The notes under the pieces: model-generated
Seen by the model: the letters and a program-made list of their open reading frames with translations, nothing else
What the model was told of the DNA's origin: nothing
The model's database searches: none
Shown here: positions 4,722-17,026 of the stretch, piece after piece
Layout: each line of letters begins with the position of its first letter
Numbering within the stretch: the first letter of the stretch is position 1
Program-made: the position numbers and the translations under genes
Source of the DNA: Devosia sp. 66-14
GTDB taxonomy: Bacteria; Pseudomonadota; Alphaproteobacteria; Rhizobiales; Devosiaceae
DNA length: 64,000 nucleotides
Direction: 5' to 3'
Assembly (NCBI GenBank): GCA_001899085.1
Contig: MKVB01000006.1
Span: 340,797 to 404,796, forward strand

Positions 4722-6850
<2,129 letters not shown>

Positions 6851-6854
<4 letters not shown>

Positions 6855-8827
6855 ACCGCCTCGAACTCCAGGATCACCTCGTCCACCGCCAGCACCGACC
6901 CTGGTTTGACGCGGACCTTGCTGATCCGCGCGCGCTTCTCAGCCTTCAGCACGTTCTCCATCTTCATCGCTTCGACGATCGCGAGGGTCTGGCCGTCCTC
7001 GACGATATCGCCTTCGGCGACGTCGATGCGAACGATCTGGCCGGGCATCGGGCAGAGCAGGAACTTCGAAAGGTCGGGCGGCAGCTTGATCGGCATCAGC
7101 GGCATCAGGTCGGCGACCTGCGGCAGCAATACCTTGGCGACCAGATCGGCGCCGCGCCAGCGCAGGCGGAAGCCGCCGGTGACGCGGTCGAGCTTGACGT
7201 GATGCAGGCGCCCATCGACGCGGGCGATGCAGAGGCTGTTGCCCGGTTTCCAACCGCTCTCGACCAAGAGCTTCTTGCCGTCCGGCGCGGTGAGCCAATA
7301 CTCGATGCCATCGGCCCGCACCGAGAAATCCCAACGCTGGGCGCCGATGAGCACGGCGCGCGGCTCAGGCGTCGTCGGATAGAGGCGTTTATCGAGCGCG
7401 AAGGCAGAGCAGCAGGCGAGTGCCGCCAGATGCGTCAGAGATTCCGCATCCGGCGTTACGCCGCTGAAACCGTTGGGGAATTCCTCGGCGATATAGCCGG
7501 TGGTTAGGCGGCCGGCACGGAAGCGTTCCTGGCCCATGACGGCCGAGAGGAACGGGATGTTGTTGCCGACACCTTCGAGTTCGAACTCGTCGAGCGCCAC
7601 CTCCATCGCGTCGATTGCTTCCGTGCGGGTCGGAGCCCAGGTGCAGAGCTTGGCGATCATCGGGTCGTAGAAGGTGGAGATCTCGCCACCCTCCGCGACG
7701 CCGGTATCGTTGCGCACCACCAGTTCGGCGCCGGCCTCCTCGGCCGGCGGGCTGTAACGGGTGAGCCGGCCGGTCGAAGGCAGGAAGTTGCGGAACGGGT
7801 CCTCGGCGTAGATGCGGCTTTCGATGGCCCAGCCGGTTATGCCGACATCGGCCTGGGTAAGCGGCAGCTTCTCGCCTGATGCGGCGAGGAACATCAGTTC
7901 GACCAGGTCGAGGCCGGTGATCAGTTCGGTGACGGGATGCTCTACCTGCAGCCGGGTGTTCATCTCGAGGAAGTAGAAGTTGCGGTCCTTGTCGACGATG
8001 AACTCGACGGTGCCGGCCGAAGTGTAACCCACCGCCTTGGCGAGGGCGACGGATTGCTCGCCCATGGCCTTGCGGGTCGCGGCATCGAGGAACGGCGACG
8101 GCGCCTCCTCGATGACCTTCTGATTGCGGCGCTGGATCGAGCATTCGCGCTCGTTGAGCCAGAGGACATTGCCGTGCTGATCTCCGATCAGCTGGATTTC
8201 GATGTGCCGCGGCTCGGTGACGAATTTCTCGATGAAGATGCGATCGTCGCCGAAGCTGGAGGCGGCCTCGGACTTCGAGCGCTCAAAGCCTTCGCGGGCC
8301 TCGGCGTCGGTGTGGGCAATGCGCATGCCCTTGCCACCACCACCGGCCGAAGCCTTGATCATCACCGGATAGCCGATGGAGCGCGAGATGGTGACGGCCT
8401 CTTCGGCATCGGCGATGAGGCCCATATGCCCGGGCACGGTCGAGACGCCGGCCGCGGCGGCCAGCTTCTTCGACGTGATCTTGTCGCCCATTGCCTCGAT
8501 GGCTTTGACCGGCGGGCCGACGAAGATGATGTTCTCGGCCTCGAGGGCAGCGGCGAAGGCGGGATTCTCCGACAGGAAACCGTAGCCGGGGTGGACCGCT
8601 TCGGCGCCGGTGGCCTTACAGGCGGCGACGATCTTGTCGATCGAGAGATAGGAGTCGCGGGCGGCGGAACCGCCGATATGCACGGCTTCATCGGCAAGCT
8701 TTACGTGCACAGCGTCTCGGTCGGCGTCGGAGTACACGGCAATGGTGCGGATGCCCATGCGCTTGGCGGTGCGGATAACGCGACAGGCGATCTCGCCGCG
8801 ATTGGCGATGAGGAGGGAGGAGAACAT
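6851..8827 (-). CDS. pccA: Propionyl-CoA carboxylase alpha subunit (biotin carboxylase + BCCP)
   Basis: 658 residues. The N-terminal biotin carboxylase domain starts with [20 protein letters not shown] and has an ATP-grasp loop [10 protein letters not shown]. The mid-section is the PCC-type BT linker, and the C-terminal biotinyl domain contains EAMKMEN with the biotinylated lysine at about residue 622. It carboxylates biotin for the beta subunit PccB, giving (S)-methylmalonyl-CoA from propionyl-CoA. The start codon follows directly on the stop of kptA with no gap, and its end overlaps the mutase start. The PCC linker and the mutase neighbour favour propionyl-CoA over acetyl-CoA as substrate. 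Confidence 0.95.
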
Positions 8828-9364
8828 TCAGGGGGTCCGCGAAAGGTATTGTGCCGGCACGGCATTGGTGAGCCAGACGCCATTGTCTGCCTGATAAAAG
8901 GCGTACCCGTCTCGGTGCATGCCGGAGGCATCGACCGAGAGCACCACGGGCCTACCGTGACGTGATCCGACAGCAATTGCCGTCGGTTCGTCGTGTGAAA
9001 GATGCACTTGCTGGCGGCTCTGAGCCCTCAACCCATCTCTCAGGATGCTGTCGATGAAGCGGTCGGCCGTACCGTGGAACAAGCGGGGCGGAGGAACCGC
9101 GGGCGCCAAACCGAGGTCGACCTTGACCGAGTGCCCTTGTGCTGCGCGTATCCTGGTTTGGTCGACCGACAGCGTAAACCGCTGCTTGTCACTGTTGGCG
9201 ACGATATTCAGCAGGGTCTCTCTATCCAGTTGTCGACCGGACGCGCCGGCCTTGGCGAGCAGTTCATCCACTGAGGCCCAACCTTGTTCATCAAGATGCA
9301 GGCCGATACTGGCGGGGTCGTGTCGCAGGACGAAGCTCAGAAATTTGCTGATCTCGACCGACAT
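8828..9364 (-). CDS. kptA: RNA 2'-phosphotransferase (Tpt1/KptA family)
   Basis: 178-residue enzyme. The known family reaction removes an internal 2'-phosphate from RNA using NAD+, releasing ADP-ribose 1'',2''-cyclic phosphate and nicotinamide. The winged-helix N-terminus carries ISKFLSFVLRHDPASIGL (R14, H15) and RIRAAQGHS (R73). The ART-like C-terminal half has FHGTADRFIDSILRDGL, SRQQVHLS (R117) and NGVWLTNAVPAQYL. All four catalytic Arg/His/Arg/Arg positions appear present. The gene sits between a macrodomain gene (two-base gap) and pccA (zero gap), so it is cotranslated with carboxylase subunits. Bacterial substrates of KptA are not settled. Confidence 0.93.
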   Translation of the reverse strand: MSVEISKFLSFVLRHDPASIGLHLDEQGWASVDELLAKAGASGRQLDRETLLNIVANSDKQRFTLSVDQTRIRAAQGHSVKVDLGLAPAVPPPRLFHGTADRFIDSILRDGLRAQSRQQVHLSHDEPTAIAVGSRHGRPVVLSVDASGMHRDGYAFYQADNGVWLTNAVPAQYLSRTP

Positions 9365-9366
9365 GG

Positions 9367-9878
9367 CTACGCCTCCGTCCTGGACAGCAGCCGCAGATAG
9401 TGGCTCGCGGCGCGATCGTCGAAGCAGCAGAAGACGACGCTTTCTACACTTCCGGGGCGTTGGAGATGATCGCGTGTCGTCTCAATCGCGATTGCCGCGG
9501 CACGATCGGGAGGGAAGAGGAACCTGCCGGTAGAAATAGCGGGAAAGGCTATGGACGCCAGGCGGTTGTCGTTCGCAAGCTCGAGCGAGCGGCGGTAGCA
9601 GCTGGCCAGGAGATCGTCTTCGCCAACATCGCCGCCTTGCCACACCGGGCCCACGGTGTGGATGACGTGGCGCGCGGGCAGCTTGTAGCCCATGGTGATC
9701 TTCGCATCGCCCGTCTTGCAGCCATTGAGGGCGCGGCAGGCGATCGCAAGTTCGGGACCAGCCGCTCGATGAATGGCACCGTCGACTCCGCCGCCGCCGA
9801 GCAGAGAACTGTTGGCGGCATTGACGATGGCATCAACCTGCAGCTTGGTGATGTCGCCCACATGCACAGCGAACCGGC

Positions 9879-9882
<4 letters not shown>
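9367..9882 (-). CDS. Macrodomain protein (MacroD/YmdB-type ADP-ribose hydrolase)
   Basis: 171 residues from a GTG start whose GTGA overlaps the stop of pccB (9879-9882). The open frame extends further upstream through pccB, but that part is antiparallel-free shadow sequence and the GTGA junction decides the start. The macrodomain signature is complete: [53 protein letters not shown] and [13 protein letters not shown]24 and D34 match residues used by MacroD enzymes to bind or hydrolyse ADP-ribose adducts such as O-acetyl-ADP-ribose. Since the next gene makes ADP-ribose cyclic phosphate, processing of that product is an attractive inferred role. Confidence 0.92.
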
Positions 9883-11411
<1,529 letters not shown>

Positions 11412-11493: not shown

Positions 11494-11531
11494 CTGCAAA
11501 GTTGCAAATTGTGAAATTGCGAACTTGCGAA
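11494..11531. promoter_or_regulatory. Tandem TTGCRAA repeats, probable PccR/ScfR operator
   Basis: Five adjacent 7-8 bp units run through the pccB-pccR intergenic region: CTGCAAAG (11494), TTGCAAAT (11502), TTGTGAAA (11509), TTGCGAAC (11517) and TTGCGAAT (11525). The last unit touches the pccR ATG at 11531. TTTGCAAA-like motifs are the known binding sites of ScfR-family regulators such as RamB, PrpR and PccR. Placement between the divergent genes suggests control of pccB and autoregulation of pccR. The repeats are read directly; the binding role is inferred. Confidence 0.7.
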
Positions 11532-12937
11532 TGGCCGACCGAAAGATCTTCGCCGGAGCCCGCGTACGGGCGGCACGCACCAAGGCGGGGCTGACGCAGC
11601 GCGAACTGGCGCGGCGGCTCGAAATCTCGGTGTCCTATCTCAACCAGATCGAGAATAACCAGAGGCCCCTGACGGCTTCGCTGATGCTGACACTGGCCGA
11701 GAACTTCGGCCTCGACCTCGGGGAGCTGACCTCGGAAGGGGCCGACCGGGTGCTGGCCGACCTGCGCGAGGCGATGGCCGACCCCCTGTTCGGCGCGGCA
11801 GCGCCGGGACTGATCGAACTCAAATCGGTGGCGACGAGCGCGCCGGATACAGCGCGGGCGCTGCTGCGGCTCTACGAGGCCTATCGCAAGGCCAACGAGC
11901 GGCTGATGGGCGCCGACGCCGCGATGGTGGGCGGGCCAGGACTGCAGACCAGCTATGAAGAGGTGCGCGACTTCTTCCACTATGCCAACAACTACGTCGA
12001 TCCGCTTGATCTCGCGGCAGAGGACCTCGCGGCGGGTATCGGCCTCGCCCTGCATGGTCGGCTCGAGCGGCTGGCGAGCTACCTCACGACCCGGCACCGG
12101 ATTTCGGTGGTATTCGAGGAGCCGATCGCGCCGGATCAGTTGCGGCGGTACGAGCGCGGATCGCGCACCATCGTGCTCAACGGGCGGCTGGCGCCGGCGA
12201 CGCAGTATTTTCAGCTCGGGGTACAGCTGGCGCTGATCGAACAGGCGGAACTGATCGACGAAATCGTCGCCGGGGCGGAGTTCAAGACCCGGCAGGCGGC
12301 CGATATCTGCCGGCTGGGGCTGGCCAACTACTTTGCGGGCGCATTGCAGATGCCCTATGGGGCGTTCCTCGCGGCGGCTGATCGGAGTGGCTACGACGTC
12401 GAGGAACTGGCATTCGCGTTCGGCGCGTCGATGGAGCAGGTCGGGCACCGGCTCTCGACCATGCAGCGCCCCAAGGCGCGGGGCGTGCCGTTCTTCTTTG
12501 CGCGGGTGGACGCAGCGGGGACCATCACCAAGCGGCACTCGGCAACGCCACTGCAGTTCCCACGCTTCGGCGGGGCGTGCCCGCTATGGAACGTGCACCG
12601 GGTGTTCGGCGAGCATAACGGGCGTATCGCGCGCCAGCTCGCCGAGACGCCGGACGGCAACCGCTATCTCTGCCTCGCCTGGTCGGAGGAAAAGCACACT
12701 GGCGGGTTTCGTGGACCAGTGCGGCGCTACGCCTATGCGCTCGGTTGCGAAGTGGCGCATGCGGGCAAGTTGACCTATGCCGCGGACCTCGAGCTGACGC
12801 GCGAGTTCGAACCGATCGGGATCAGTTGCCGCATCTGTCCGCGCACCAACTGCATCCAGCGCTCGGTGCCACCGATGGATGCGCGGCTGGAGATCGATGT
12901 CGATCGGCGCGAAGTGGTGCCGTATCGGCTGGGGTGA
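11531..12937 (+). CDS. pccR: Short-chain fatty acyl-CoA regulator, XRE-ImmA/IrrE-DUF2083 family (PccR-like)
   Basis: 468 residues. The N-terminal XRE helix-turn-helix spans about residues 5-60 (LTQRELARRLEISVSYLNQI). A degenerate IrrE/DUF955 region without the HExxH zinc motif follows, then the C-terminal DUF2083 domain with the family's cysteine cluster ISCRICPRTNC. Members sense short-chain acyl-CoA and control propionate, acetate or glyoxylate genes. The divergent position next to pccB argues for propionyl-CoA control, as described for PccR of Rhodobacter. ATG 11531 is preferred over the TTG at 11525, which would fall inside the operator repeats. A strong hairpin follows the stop. Confidence 0.88.
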   Translation: MADRKIFAGARVRAARTKAGLTQRELARRLEISVSYLNQIENNQRPLTASLMLTLAENFGLDLGELTSEGADRVLADLREAMADPLFGAAAPGLIELKSVATSAPDTARALLRLYEAYRKANERLMGADAAMVGGPGLQTSYEEVRDFFHYANNYVDPLDLAAEDLAAGIGLALHGRLERLASYLTTRHRISVVFEEPIAPDQLRRYERGSRTIVLNGRLAPATQYFQLGVQLALIEQAELIDEIVAGAEFKTRQAADICRLGLANYFAGALQMPYGAFLAAADRSGYDVEELAFAFGASMEQVGHRLSTMQRPKARGVPFFFARVDAAGTITKRHSATPLQFPRFGGACPLWNVHRVFGEHNGRIARQLAETPDGNRYLCLAWSEEKHTGGFRGPVRRYAYALGCEVAHAGKLTYAADLELTREFEPIGISCRICPRTNCIQRSVPPMDARLEIDVDRREVVPYRLG

Positions 12938-15050: not shown

Positions 15051-16964
15051 TCAGCCCTGGCCGCCCGAGACCAGGGAGGTGATGCGGCGGACCGTGACGC
15101 GACGGTTGGCGCGCTCGGCGCCGTCGGTCTCGACCTTGAGGTAGCGCTCGCCATAGCCCTGCGTGGTGAGGTTCTCCGGCGGGATGTCGTAGAACTCGCT
15201 CAACAGGTTGGCGATGCTGTCGGCGCGCTCGTCGGAGAGGACGAGGTTGGACTGGTCCGAACCAACGGCATCGGTGTGGCCCTCGATGAGGAAGGTCTCG
15301 CCCGGGTTGCGCTCGAGGATCTTCTTCATCGCCTCGGCGACCTTGCCGAGCGAGCCGACCTGGTCGCGGCCGAGCTGGGCCGAGCCGGTGTCGAAGGTCA
15401 GGTCGCCGATCTCGACGCGGCGGACCGTGTCGCGGATGCGGGCCGAACGTTTGACTTCGTCGACGGTATAGACCCGGGCGGCCTTCTCGAGCGGCGGTTC
15501 GCTCAGGAACCGCTCGATGTCACCCTCGTCGGAGCGCTCGCTGTAGAGCACGTAGTCATCCACCGGGATCGGCAGGTAGAACGGCGGCAGGTTATCGCCC
15601 GGATCACGCCAGTCGTCGTCCCGACGATCATCGGGCGAGAAGACCAGGATGACGCGGGTCCCGTCGGGGAGCACCTTCACGCGGCGAATGATCTCGCCAT
15701 AGCGGTTCCACACGGTAACCACGCGGGTGCCGTCGGGCCGGATGACGGTCTGCCGGTAGCGACCGTTGTCCAGCTCTTCGTAGTAGGCCTCATCGCCACG
15801 GCCAATCCGGTCGCGATCCTCGTAGGGTGTGAAGATGTTGATCTGGACACCGATGTTGATGATCAGCCGATCGCCATCTTTCTTGGCCCCCTGCGCGGCA
15901 GGAGGTGCTTCCGGCGCCGGCAACTGATCGACGCGCTTGCCTTCGGTGGCAACAGTCGCCTCGACCTCCTGGGCCGGCGGCGGCGTCGAGGCCTGGGCAT
16001 CGGCATCGGTGGCCGGAGGCGGCGCTTCGGCGGCCGGAGGCTCCGCAGGTGCCGGCTGTTCGGTGCCGGCCTGCTGAGCATCCTTGGCGCTGTCGAGCAC
16101 CGGAGCGGCAGGAGCGTCAGGCGTTTCCTGATCGGGCACCACCTCGAGCGGCTGGCCGGACGTATCGGTGGCCGGAGCCTCACCCGATGGCGCCGGCTGA
16201 CCCGGCTGGGCCGGCTCGGCGGGCGCTGCGGGCGTAGCCGGCTCAGCGGGCGTAGCTGGCGCTGCGCTGCCACCCATCAAGGCCAGGCACTCGTCGAGTG
16301 ACTTGATGCCGAGCCGGTTACACTCGGCAAGGAAGGCTGCCTCAGCCGCGGCCTTGGCGTTGGCGTCGCCACCGGAGCTGGCCGAAACATAGGCCTCGAA
16401 CGCAGCGATCAGCGCCGGATCACTGGCGGGCGATGCCTGTGCGCCGGAGGCCGGCTGTTCGGCGGCGGGTTGTTCTGCCGCCGGAGGCTGCTCGGCGGGA
16501 GCGGGTTGCTCGGCAGGTGGGGCCGGCTGTTCCGCCGGCGGGGCCGGCTGCTCAGCAGGAGGTGCAGGCTGCTCGGCCGGCGGTGCAGGCTGCTCGGCCG
16601 GCGGTGCAGGCTGCTCAGCCGGCGGGGCGGGCTGCTCAGCCGGCGGGGCGGGCTGCTCGGCCGGCGGGGCCGGCTCCTCGGCCGGGGGAGCCGGCTGCTC
16701 GGCCGGGGGCGCGGGCTGCTCCGCCTTGGCGGCTCCAGTCGCGACGGCGATACACTGCTTGAGGTCCGGCGTACCGACACGCTGGCACTCGGCCAGAAAA
16801 GCCGCCTCGGCGGCCGCCTTGGCATCGGCGTCATCGCCGCTCCGGGCCTCGACATAGGCATTGTAGGCCGCCGTCAACCCTGCGTCCTGCCCCAGGGCAG
16901 CGACAGGGAGCAGCGAGAGCATGCAAAGGCTCGTGGTCGTAAGCAATAAGCGCTTGAGCTGCAT
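15051..16964 (-). CDS. OmpA-family protein with PAPPAEQ repeats
   Basis: 637 residues from ATG 16964, behind a GGAG Shine-Dalgarno. A signal peptide (residues 1 to about 26, ending VAALG-Q) is followed by a 45-residue unit, a proline-rich linker of about ten PAPPAEQ heptads (residues 84-153), a second copy of the 45-residue unit, and a long P/A/E-rich stretch. The C-terminal OmpA/MotB peptidoglycan-binding domain shows FLIEGHTDAVGSDQSNLVLS and QGYGERYLKVETDGAERANR. It probably tethers the outer membrane or periplasm to peptidoglycan. A sigma-EcfG-like promoter lies 63 bp upstream and a hairpin terminator lies downstream. The N-terminal unit is unassigned. Confidence 0.85.
   Translation of the reverse strand: MQLKRLLLTTTSLCMLSLLPVAALGQDAGLTAAYNAYVEARSGDDADAKAAAEAAFLAECQRVGTPDLKQCIAVATGAAKAEQPAPPAEQPAPPAEEPAPPAEQPAPPAEQPAPPAEQPAPPAEQPAPPAEQPAPPAEQPAPPAEQPAPPAEQPAPAEQPPAAEQPAAEQPASGAQASPASDPALIAAFEAYVSASSGGDANAKAAAEAAFLAECNRLGIKSLDECLALMGGSAAPATPAEPATPAAPAEPAQPGQPAPSGEAPATDTSGQPLEVVPDQETPDAPAAPVLDSAKDAQQAGTEQPAPAEPPAAEAPPPATDADAQASTPPPAQEVEATVATEGKRVDQLPAPEAPPAAQGAKKDGDRLIINIGVQINIFTPYEDRDRIGRGDEAYYEELDNGRYRQTVIRPDGTRVVTVWNRYGEIIRRVKVLPDGTRVILVFSPDDRRDDDWRDPGDNLPPFYLPIPVDDYVLYSERSDEGDIERFLSEPPLEKAARVYTVDEVKRSARIRDTVRRVEIGDLTFDTGSAQLGRDQVGSLGKVAEAMKKILERNPGETFLIEGHTDAVGSDQSNLVLSDERADSIANLLSEFYDIPPENLTTQGYGERYLKVETDGAERANRRVTVRRITSLVSGGQG
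16506..16715. repeat. Tandem 21-bp coding repeat (PAPPAEQ heptads)
   Basis: About ten in-frame copies of a 21-bp unit encode PAPPAEQ, with one PAPPAEE variant. The array is prone to copy-number change by slippage and probably forms a flexible spacer spanning the periplasm. Confidence 0.85.
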
Positions 16965-17026
16965 GGTTTTTCTCCGTTCTTCTTGTGATGCAACAGCCAA
17001 CCCGCCCTGAACTGGCGCTGGGTCGG

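Follow-up and report, generated by a model that had tools for sequence, protein, structure and literature searches.

The window analysed here, a stretch of 64,000 nucleotides from Devosia sp. 66-14 (the genome under study, G000), contains a propionyl-CoA carboxylase operon on the minus strand in which two further genes separate the two subunit genes. The beta-subunit gene pccB (9879..11411; Pfam Carboxyl_trans, 1.9e-190) is followed by macro (9367..9882), which starts with GTG and encodes a MacroD-type macrodomain protein of 171 aa (Pfam Macro, 2.3e-46), and by kptA, also called tpt1 (8828..9364), for a predicted RNA 2'-phosphotransferase of 178 aa (Pfam PTS_2-RNA, 3.3e-50). The alpha-subunit gene pccA (6851..8827; Pfam biotin carboxylase domains, PCC_BT and Biotin_lipoyl) and the gene for methylmalonyl-CoA mutase (4722..6854; Pfam MM_CoA_mutase; NCBIfam PRK09426.1, 1173 bits over a cut-off of 876) come next. 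This gene order on one strand agrees with the original prediction, and the coordinates also bear out the junctions that it gave: the pccB stop overlaps the macro start as GTGA (9879-9882), 2 bp separate the macro stop from kptA, 0 bp separate the kptA stop from pccA, and pccA overlaps the mutase gene as ATGA (6851-6854). No NAD-salvage, NADAR or ARH gene lies beside the macro-kptA pair, whose neighbours are pccB, pccA and the mutase gene.

Divergent from pccB lies the gene for an ScfR-family (RamB/PccR-like) short-chain acyl-CoA regulator (11525..12937, plus strand; Pfam ScfRs, 6.1e-58, with HTH_3 and Peptidase_M78); against the NCBIfam RamB model the protein scores 419, below the cut-off of 700. 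The pcc genes of Rhodobacter likewise have an ScfR-family gene divergently placed next to pccB, and the consulted part of the source describes its product, PccR, as an activator of the pcc pathway (PMC10370305). The present locus differs in that two foreign-looking genes separate the subunit genes, and the likeness of the regulator to PccR is at the level of the family. TTGCAAA-like repeats occur in the regulator-pccB gap, and the one match there to a loose box, TTTGCAACTTTGC (11496..11508, minus strand), just inside this gap, is a candidate ScfR box and a candidate binding site of the regulator. Its pattern has one match in the window where shuffling expects 0.03 (3 of 100 shuffles had one), a test that is not independent since the pattern was modelled on the PccR motif and chosen after inspection of the region. 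A scan of the operon gave 0 promoter-like sites and 3 terminator-like sites against 4.8 expected.

The kptA product exceeds the curated cut-offs of its family (PF01885, 171 over 26 bits; NCBIfam equivalog PRK00819.1-4, 253 over 239) and aligns without gaps and with an offset of +2 to PDB chain 7kw8, which we take to be the Runella enzyme RslTpt1, consistent with its residue numbering. We likewise take 6e3a to be CthTpt1. In this alignment the catalytic tetrad Arg-His-Arg-Arg is present as R14, H15, R62 and R117; R16, H17 and R64 of the reference fall on the first three, and the fourth residue of RslTpt1 is presumably R119. The consulted portion of the Tpt1 study names R16, H17 and R64 as tetrad residues of RslTpt1, and its Arg121 of CthTpt1, together with the alignment, places the fourth residue at R117 (PMC6333775). 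Three of the four catalytic residues originally proposed (R14, H15 and R117) are thereby upheld, and the third arginine of the tetrad is R62 instead of R73, which is invariant across a 30-sequence alignment and yet lies outside the tetrad. Further residues scanned in Tpt1 are also present (S6, K7, K60, Q76, H97, T99, I107, R135 and H136). With its full-length alignment and tetrad the protein resembles the known Tpt1/KptA enzymes and is predicted to act as an RNA 2'-phosphotransferase of this family; what sets it apart from them is the position of its gene inside a propionyl-CoA carboxylase operon.

The macrodomain protein is also well above its thresholds (PF01661, 157 over 22 bits; NCBIfam equivalog PRK00431.1-6, 228 over 200), and the closest solved chains are MACROD2 and a bacterial O-acetyl-ADP-ribose deacetylase. 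It shares domain, size and first loop with the MacroD macrodomains (human MACROD1/2, bacterial O-acetyl-ADP-ribose deacetylase and SCO6450 of S. coelicolor). The macrodomain signature had been called intact, which holds for the first loop (NAAN at 21, the second part of the motif at 29) and fails for the second, where the protein has STGRFLF, with GRFL in place of the GVYG/GIYG of MacroD-type macrodomains; its nearest relative, in the congeneric genome G015, has STGRYNF. The GVYG/GIYG form, which is typical of such proteins and the commonest among 113 macrodomains compared, is a frequent rather than an absolute feature: GIYGF, GVYGF, GVYGY or GIYGY is found in 65 of the 113, the fourth place is taken by R in 24, and the protein of G000 is the single one with GRFLF. 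Because the second loop is atypical, the activity of the macrodomain may be altered.

The pair as such is not conserved. Of the 19 genus genomes one has KptA, as do 2 of 136 in the family and 37 of 397 in the order sample; a macrodomain like that of G000 is present in 3 of the 136 and 113 of the 397. Among the genomes examined, macro and kptA stand together at pcc only in G000, and the proposal that they would be kept in the pccB-pccA intervals of relatives, on which the original prediction had staked its metabolic link, is not borne out; a conserved macro-kptA-pcc module is rejected. In none of the 37 further genomes with KptA, 36 from the order sample and 1 from the family, does a macrodomain gene adjoin kptA. 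Many of the 37 are drafts; a macrodomain match occurs in 18 of them, at about 21 kb in the closest cases (G253 and G327), and most carriers have kptA and macro at other loci. PADLOC matched neither protein at E 0.01, and in its terms an anti-phage defence pair was also rejected. The argument that chance insertion does not suffice to account for the arrangement gains support from the separate recurrence of kptA and of macro in or at carboxylase loci.

For kptA this recurrence concerns the pccB-pccA interval itself (the slot). In the family of Rhizobium oryzicola, a sample that also contains an Oricola MAG although NCBI places Oricola in Ahrensiaceae, KptA is found in 35 of 394 genomes, and in 7 of these 35 carriers kptA lies inside the slot. 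At least five slot cases occur among the best 80 of 579 named-genome relatives of KptA (Rhizobium oryzicola, Rhizobium sp. Leaf453, Ciceribacter lividus, a Rhizobiales isolate and the Oricola MAG). With three of them already counted among the seven, the slot genomes number ten once G000 is added. In the order sample kptA lies outside the slot in 29 of the 30 carriers that were read around kptA, out of 37 (G158, G203, G238, G297, G309, G382 and G407 were left out); this sample shares at least four carriers, at the same coordinates, with the Rhizobium family sample (G157/G554, G405/G716, G501/G772 and G267/G739). The position of kptA within the slot varies, from directly behind pccB, to farther down by a glutathione-transferase gene and a 125-aa gene, to abutting pccA. 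None of the kptA genes found in slots of the Rhizobium family is accompanied by an adjacent macro gene, and four of the five named slot-kptA genomes have no macrodomain match anywhere. A protein of about 125 aa without a Pfam match recurs in the slots of these genomes, sometimes in two copies (L204 5620-5994 and L207 5117-5494, with similar proteins in L208, L210, L274 and related slots).

The number of entries of kptA into the slot was examined in trees. In the KptA trees (139 proteins, 130 of them different, with L225 and L321 dropped for stops and L033, L064, L322, L325 and L326 left out) the slot/non-slot label requires three changes. In a tree of 53 rows hand-picked around the slot rows, the bootstrap of which had not settled, a single clade of all ten slot rows was not rejected by the AU test (p-AU 0.069), and the values were 0.274 for the nine slot rows without G000 and 0.216 for G000 with a seven-row group. 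At this p-AU of 0.069 spread from one entry is possible, and these data point to at least one entry with spread and perhaps three. The KptA of G000 shares its highest identity, 67%, with a slot member and is placed in the tree, weakly, near sequences from Hymenobacter, Amycolatopsis and a Rhodanobacteraceae member.

Codon use sets the two genes apart from the genes around them. GC3 is 0.744 in macro and 0.687 in kptA against 0.847-0.865 in pccA, pccB and the mutase gene. Between G000 and G015 the macro gene has a dN/dS of 0.20 and a dS of 0.98, twice that of pccA and pccB (0.41-0.43), a doubling that would be expected either from a weaker codon bias or if the gene was acquired separately. The macro pair G364/G483, which is linked to methylcrotonyl-CoA carboxylase (MCC)-like genes, has the same doubling, and the close macro pair L102/L109 has none (dN/dS 0.47 on few changes). 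Three pairs of slot kptA genes have dN/dS values of 0.07-0.23.

The reading that on balance we hold to be probable is that macro and kptA are horizontally gained, selected accessory genes in an interval that repeatedly takes up cargo, co-expressed from a propionyl-CoA-responsive operon. At the level of sequence it is supported by the tight packing, by the intact catalytic residues of KptA, by codon use unlike that of the flanks and by G015, which has the macro at the same junction without kptA. The variable contents of the slot in the genus, the slot kptA of the Rhizobium family, the low dN/dS values, the divergent ScfR-family gene and the NAD-salvage clusters and enzyme chemistry described below also speak for it. 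Counting against it are the atypical second loop of the macrodomain, the location of kptA outside the slot in 29 of the 30 order-sample carriers read, and the recurrence of exactly these two ADP-ribose gene families in carboxylase gaps, which exceeds the prediction of a purely permissive site. KptA would use NAD+ to remove 2'-phosphates from broken or ligated RNA, or alternatively would ADP-ribosylate RNA 5'-phosphates, and the macrodomain would hydrolyse the resulting ADP-ribosyl esters or phosphates, allowing ADP-ribose to be recycled. Both genes would be expressed from the propionyl-CoA-responsive operon, and co-expression with propionyl-CoA catabolism is probable; the tie to propionyl-CoA would be one of shared expression and location and not of a shared substrate.

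Macro genes also recur beside acyl-CoA carboxylase genes, and this opens another explanation. A MacroD gene lies at most 0.5 kb from a carboxylase subunit gene at 9 of 112 order loci read, out of 116 listed places (omitted were G229, the weak G460 and G428 and the second G477 place), which amounts to 4 of 52 macro-bearing genera of the order. Apart from the propionyl-CoA carboxylase (PCC) locus of G000, these are MCC-like loci in one genus (G356, G431, G202, G237 and G267) and in another (G483 and G364), and G148, with an alpha-subunit gene only; the MCC-like label reflects sequence identity to the window's own PCC subunits, 31-33% for beta and 42-58% for alpha. Weak biotin-domain, ATP-grasp or AccC-like hits near the macros of L108, L131, L148, L152, L153 and L162 were excluded from the count. 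Greedy calling of open reading frames missed the macro frame at 36 loci, and therefore no neighbour statistics were drawn from it. Two more PCC-linked macros, of G015 and G106, came from the family search. In one MCC-like locus (L138 418-7601, G364) one strand carries an MCC-like beta gene, genes for an ASCH-domain protein and an alpha/beta hydrolase, macro and an MCC-like alpha gene, along with a gene that by eye resembles those of acyl-CoA synthetases.

From this distribution one could argue that the macrodomain of PCC and MCC operons clears acyl-ADP-ribose, with a sirtuin stripping propionyl, methylmalonyl or methylglutaconyl groups from lysines and the macrodomain hydrolysing the O-acyl-ADP-ribose so made; kptA would then be an independent occupant of the slot. 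O-acetyl-ADP-ribose is a substrate of MacroD proteins according to the part of the literature source used here (PMC7050489), the NCBIfam family name agrees, and in the macro tree the PCC group (G000/G015) stands together with the two MCC-like genera with support of 85-94. In the same tree, however, the macros of G374 and G477 are nested among the carboxylase-linked ones and are not beside carboxylase genes, and those of G106 and G148 are placed elsewhere. This explanation also leaves the slot kptA unaccounted for, and we regard it as rather unlikely. A link of SirTM type to biotin carriers was set aside, as the consulted part of its source reports SirTM to be inactive on biotinyl-BCCP (PMC4518038).

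The contents of the slot itself could instead suggest a neutral landing site, an interval that tolerates insertions, where kptA and macro reside only in passing and selection binds them neither to one another nor to the operon. In the genus the slot is readable in 16 of 19 genomes (that of G002 is cut by a contig end) and shows seven states: macro with kptA in G000; macro alone in G015, again joined by GTGA; a DUF559-like gene in six genomes; a DUF4160-DUF2442 pair in three; a CAP12/Pycsar-type TIR-domain protein in G008 (L010); in G011, a long frame that lies solely on the opposite strand; and an empty slot of 5-121 bp in three. For the DUF559, DUF4160, DUF2442 and TIR proteins, Pfam was applied to a single representative per family, and the others were assigned by likeness. 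In G106 (L067) pccA has beside it a macro gene, another macro frame that is partial and, by eye, a DUF559-like frame, which looks like repeated insertion or duplication. A survey of pccB across the order covered 110 of the 122 places listed, in 107 of 115 genomes, and resolved 47 intervals with unlike contents, while 63 places had no pccA in reach, 22 of them read with only 1.5 kb. The gap is at most 100 bp in 7 intervals and more than 1 kb in 28, lengths that are approximate as most stretches start about 50 bases before the pccB end, with relative orientation unverified. KptA is moreover mobile, with relatives matched in 71 plasmid and 94 phage records, one of them on a 4,858-base Acetobacter plasmid and another on a plasmid of Acidovorax, next to genes for an ADP-ribosylglycohydrolase and a NUDIX protein. 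Only at G000, among the 110 order loci, does the stretch read behind pccB contain kptA or macro. Against neutrality stand the 7 of 35 Rhizobium family carriers with kptA in this one interval, at more than one position within it, and the signs of purifying selection. We consider neutral residence unlikely.

A broader idea, which we think quite improbable, is that acyl-CoA carboxylase operons repeatedly recruit enzymes of NAD+ and ADP-ribose chemistry because their substrates arise from acyl-CoA metabolism, the macrodomain for sirtuin-derived O-acyl-ADP-ribose and KptA for CoA-derived nucleotides or CoA-capped RNA ends. The action of KptA on CoA-derived substrates is speculation, made concrete because the adenosine 3',5'-bisphosphate (pAp) moiety is part of CoA and the RNA site of CthTpt1 binds pAp. 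In the CthTpt1 crystal, as described in the portion of the report used here, pAp occupies the RNA site (PMC6333775).

Outside carboxylase operons the two functions do meet. Among the best 80 of 579 named KptA loci, four have a macrodomain gene within 6 kb of kptA. By Pfam, a Flavobacterium locus (L256, 3982-10323) has NADAR, a Macro-ARH fusion, kptA, ARH and NAMPT in one run, and a Chitinimonas locus (L283) has NAPRT, NAD synthase, Macro, a nucleotidyltransferase-NUDIX gene and kptA; by their gene content both are NAD-salvage clusters. A second Flavobacterium locus (L279, 2140-7380) resembles L256 by eye and has in addition a microbial PARG; L279 and L245 were read mostly by eye. As in L256 and L283, macro and kptA lie on one strand in the window, where in contrast to those clusters the pair has no adjacent NAD-salvage gene and the host operon is one of propionyl-CoA catabolism. 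With enzymes of S. coelicolor, a KptA-made RNA modification was reversed by a MacroD protein, as the consulted part of that study states (PMC6582358), and the accessible text of another lists ADP-ribose 1''-phosphate and O-acetyl-ADP-ribose among further substrates of macrodomains (PMC9503650). From this published chemistry and from the clusters elsewhere it is plausible that KptA and the macrodomain act in sequence. Because macro and kptA share NAD-salvage clusters elsewhere, the partnership of their functions has precedent; its address inside a pcc operon has none. That the two form a dedicated module biochemically tied to propionyl-CoA metabolism, as originally proposed from their adjacency, tight packing and known enzyme chemistry, is very improbable given that, among the genomes examined, the pair occurs at pcc only in G000 and that the slot kptA of the Rhizobium family comes without macro alongside, in four of the five named genomes without any macrodomain match.

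What KptA does in bacteria has long been puzzling, in the terms of the consulted section of PMC6333775, and its recurrent presence in pcc operons offers a growth condition (propionate or odd- and branched-chain catabolism) in which to hunt for its substrate. The MacroD proteins of PCC and MCC operons are candidate O-acyl-ADP-ribose hydrolases. The literature search found no paper containing both propionyl-CoA carboxylase and KptA, and at a level that was mostly one of titles and listings it found no description of a macrodomain or O-acetyl-ADP-ribose deacetylase paired with MCC, PCC or propionyl-CoA. The parts are known, and within the literature searched the address inside the pcc operon is new. 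The separate recurrence of kptA and macro at carboxylase loci makes an odd-looking insertion testable.

Elsewhere in the window, the product of a minus-strand gene at 15051-17000 contains an extended tract of EQPAPPA-type repeats, and its C-terminus looks OmpA-like by eye.
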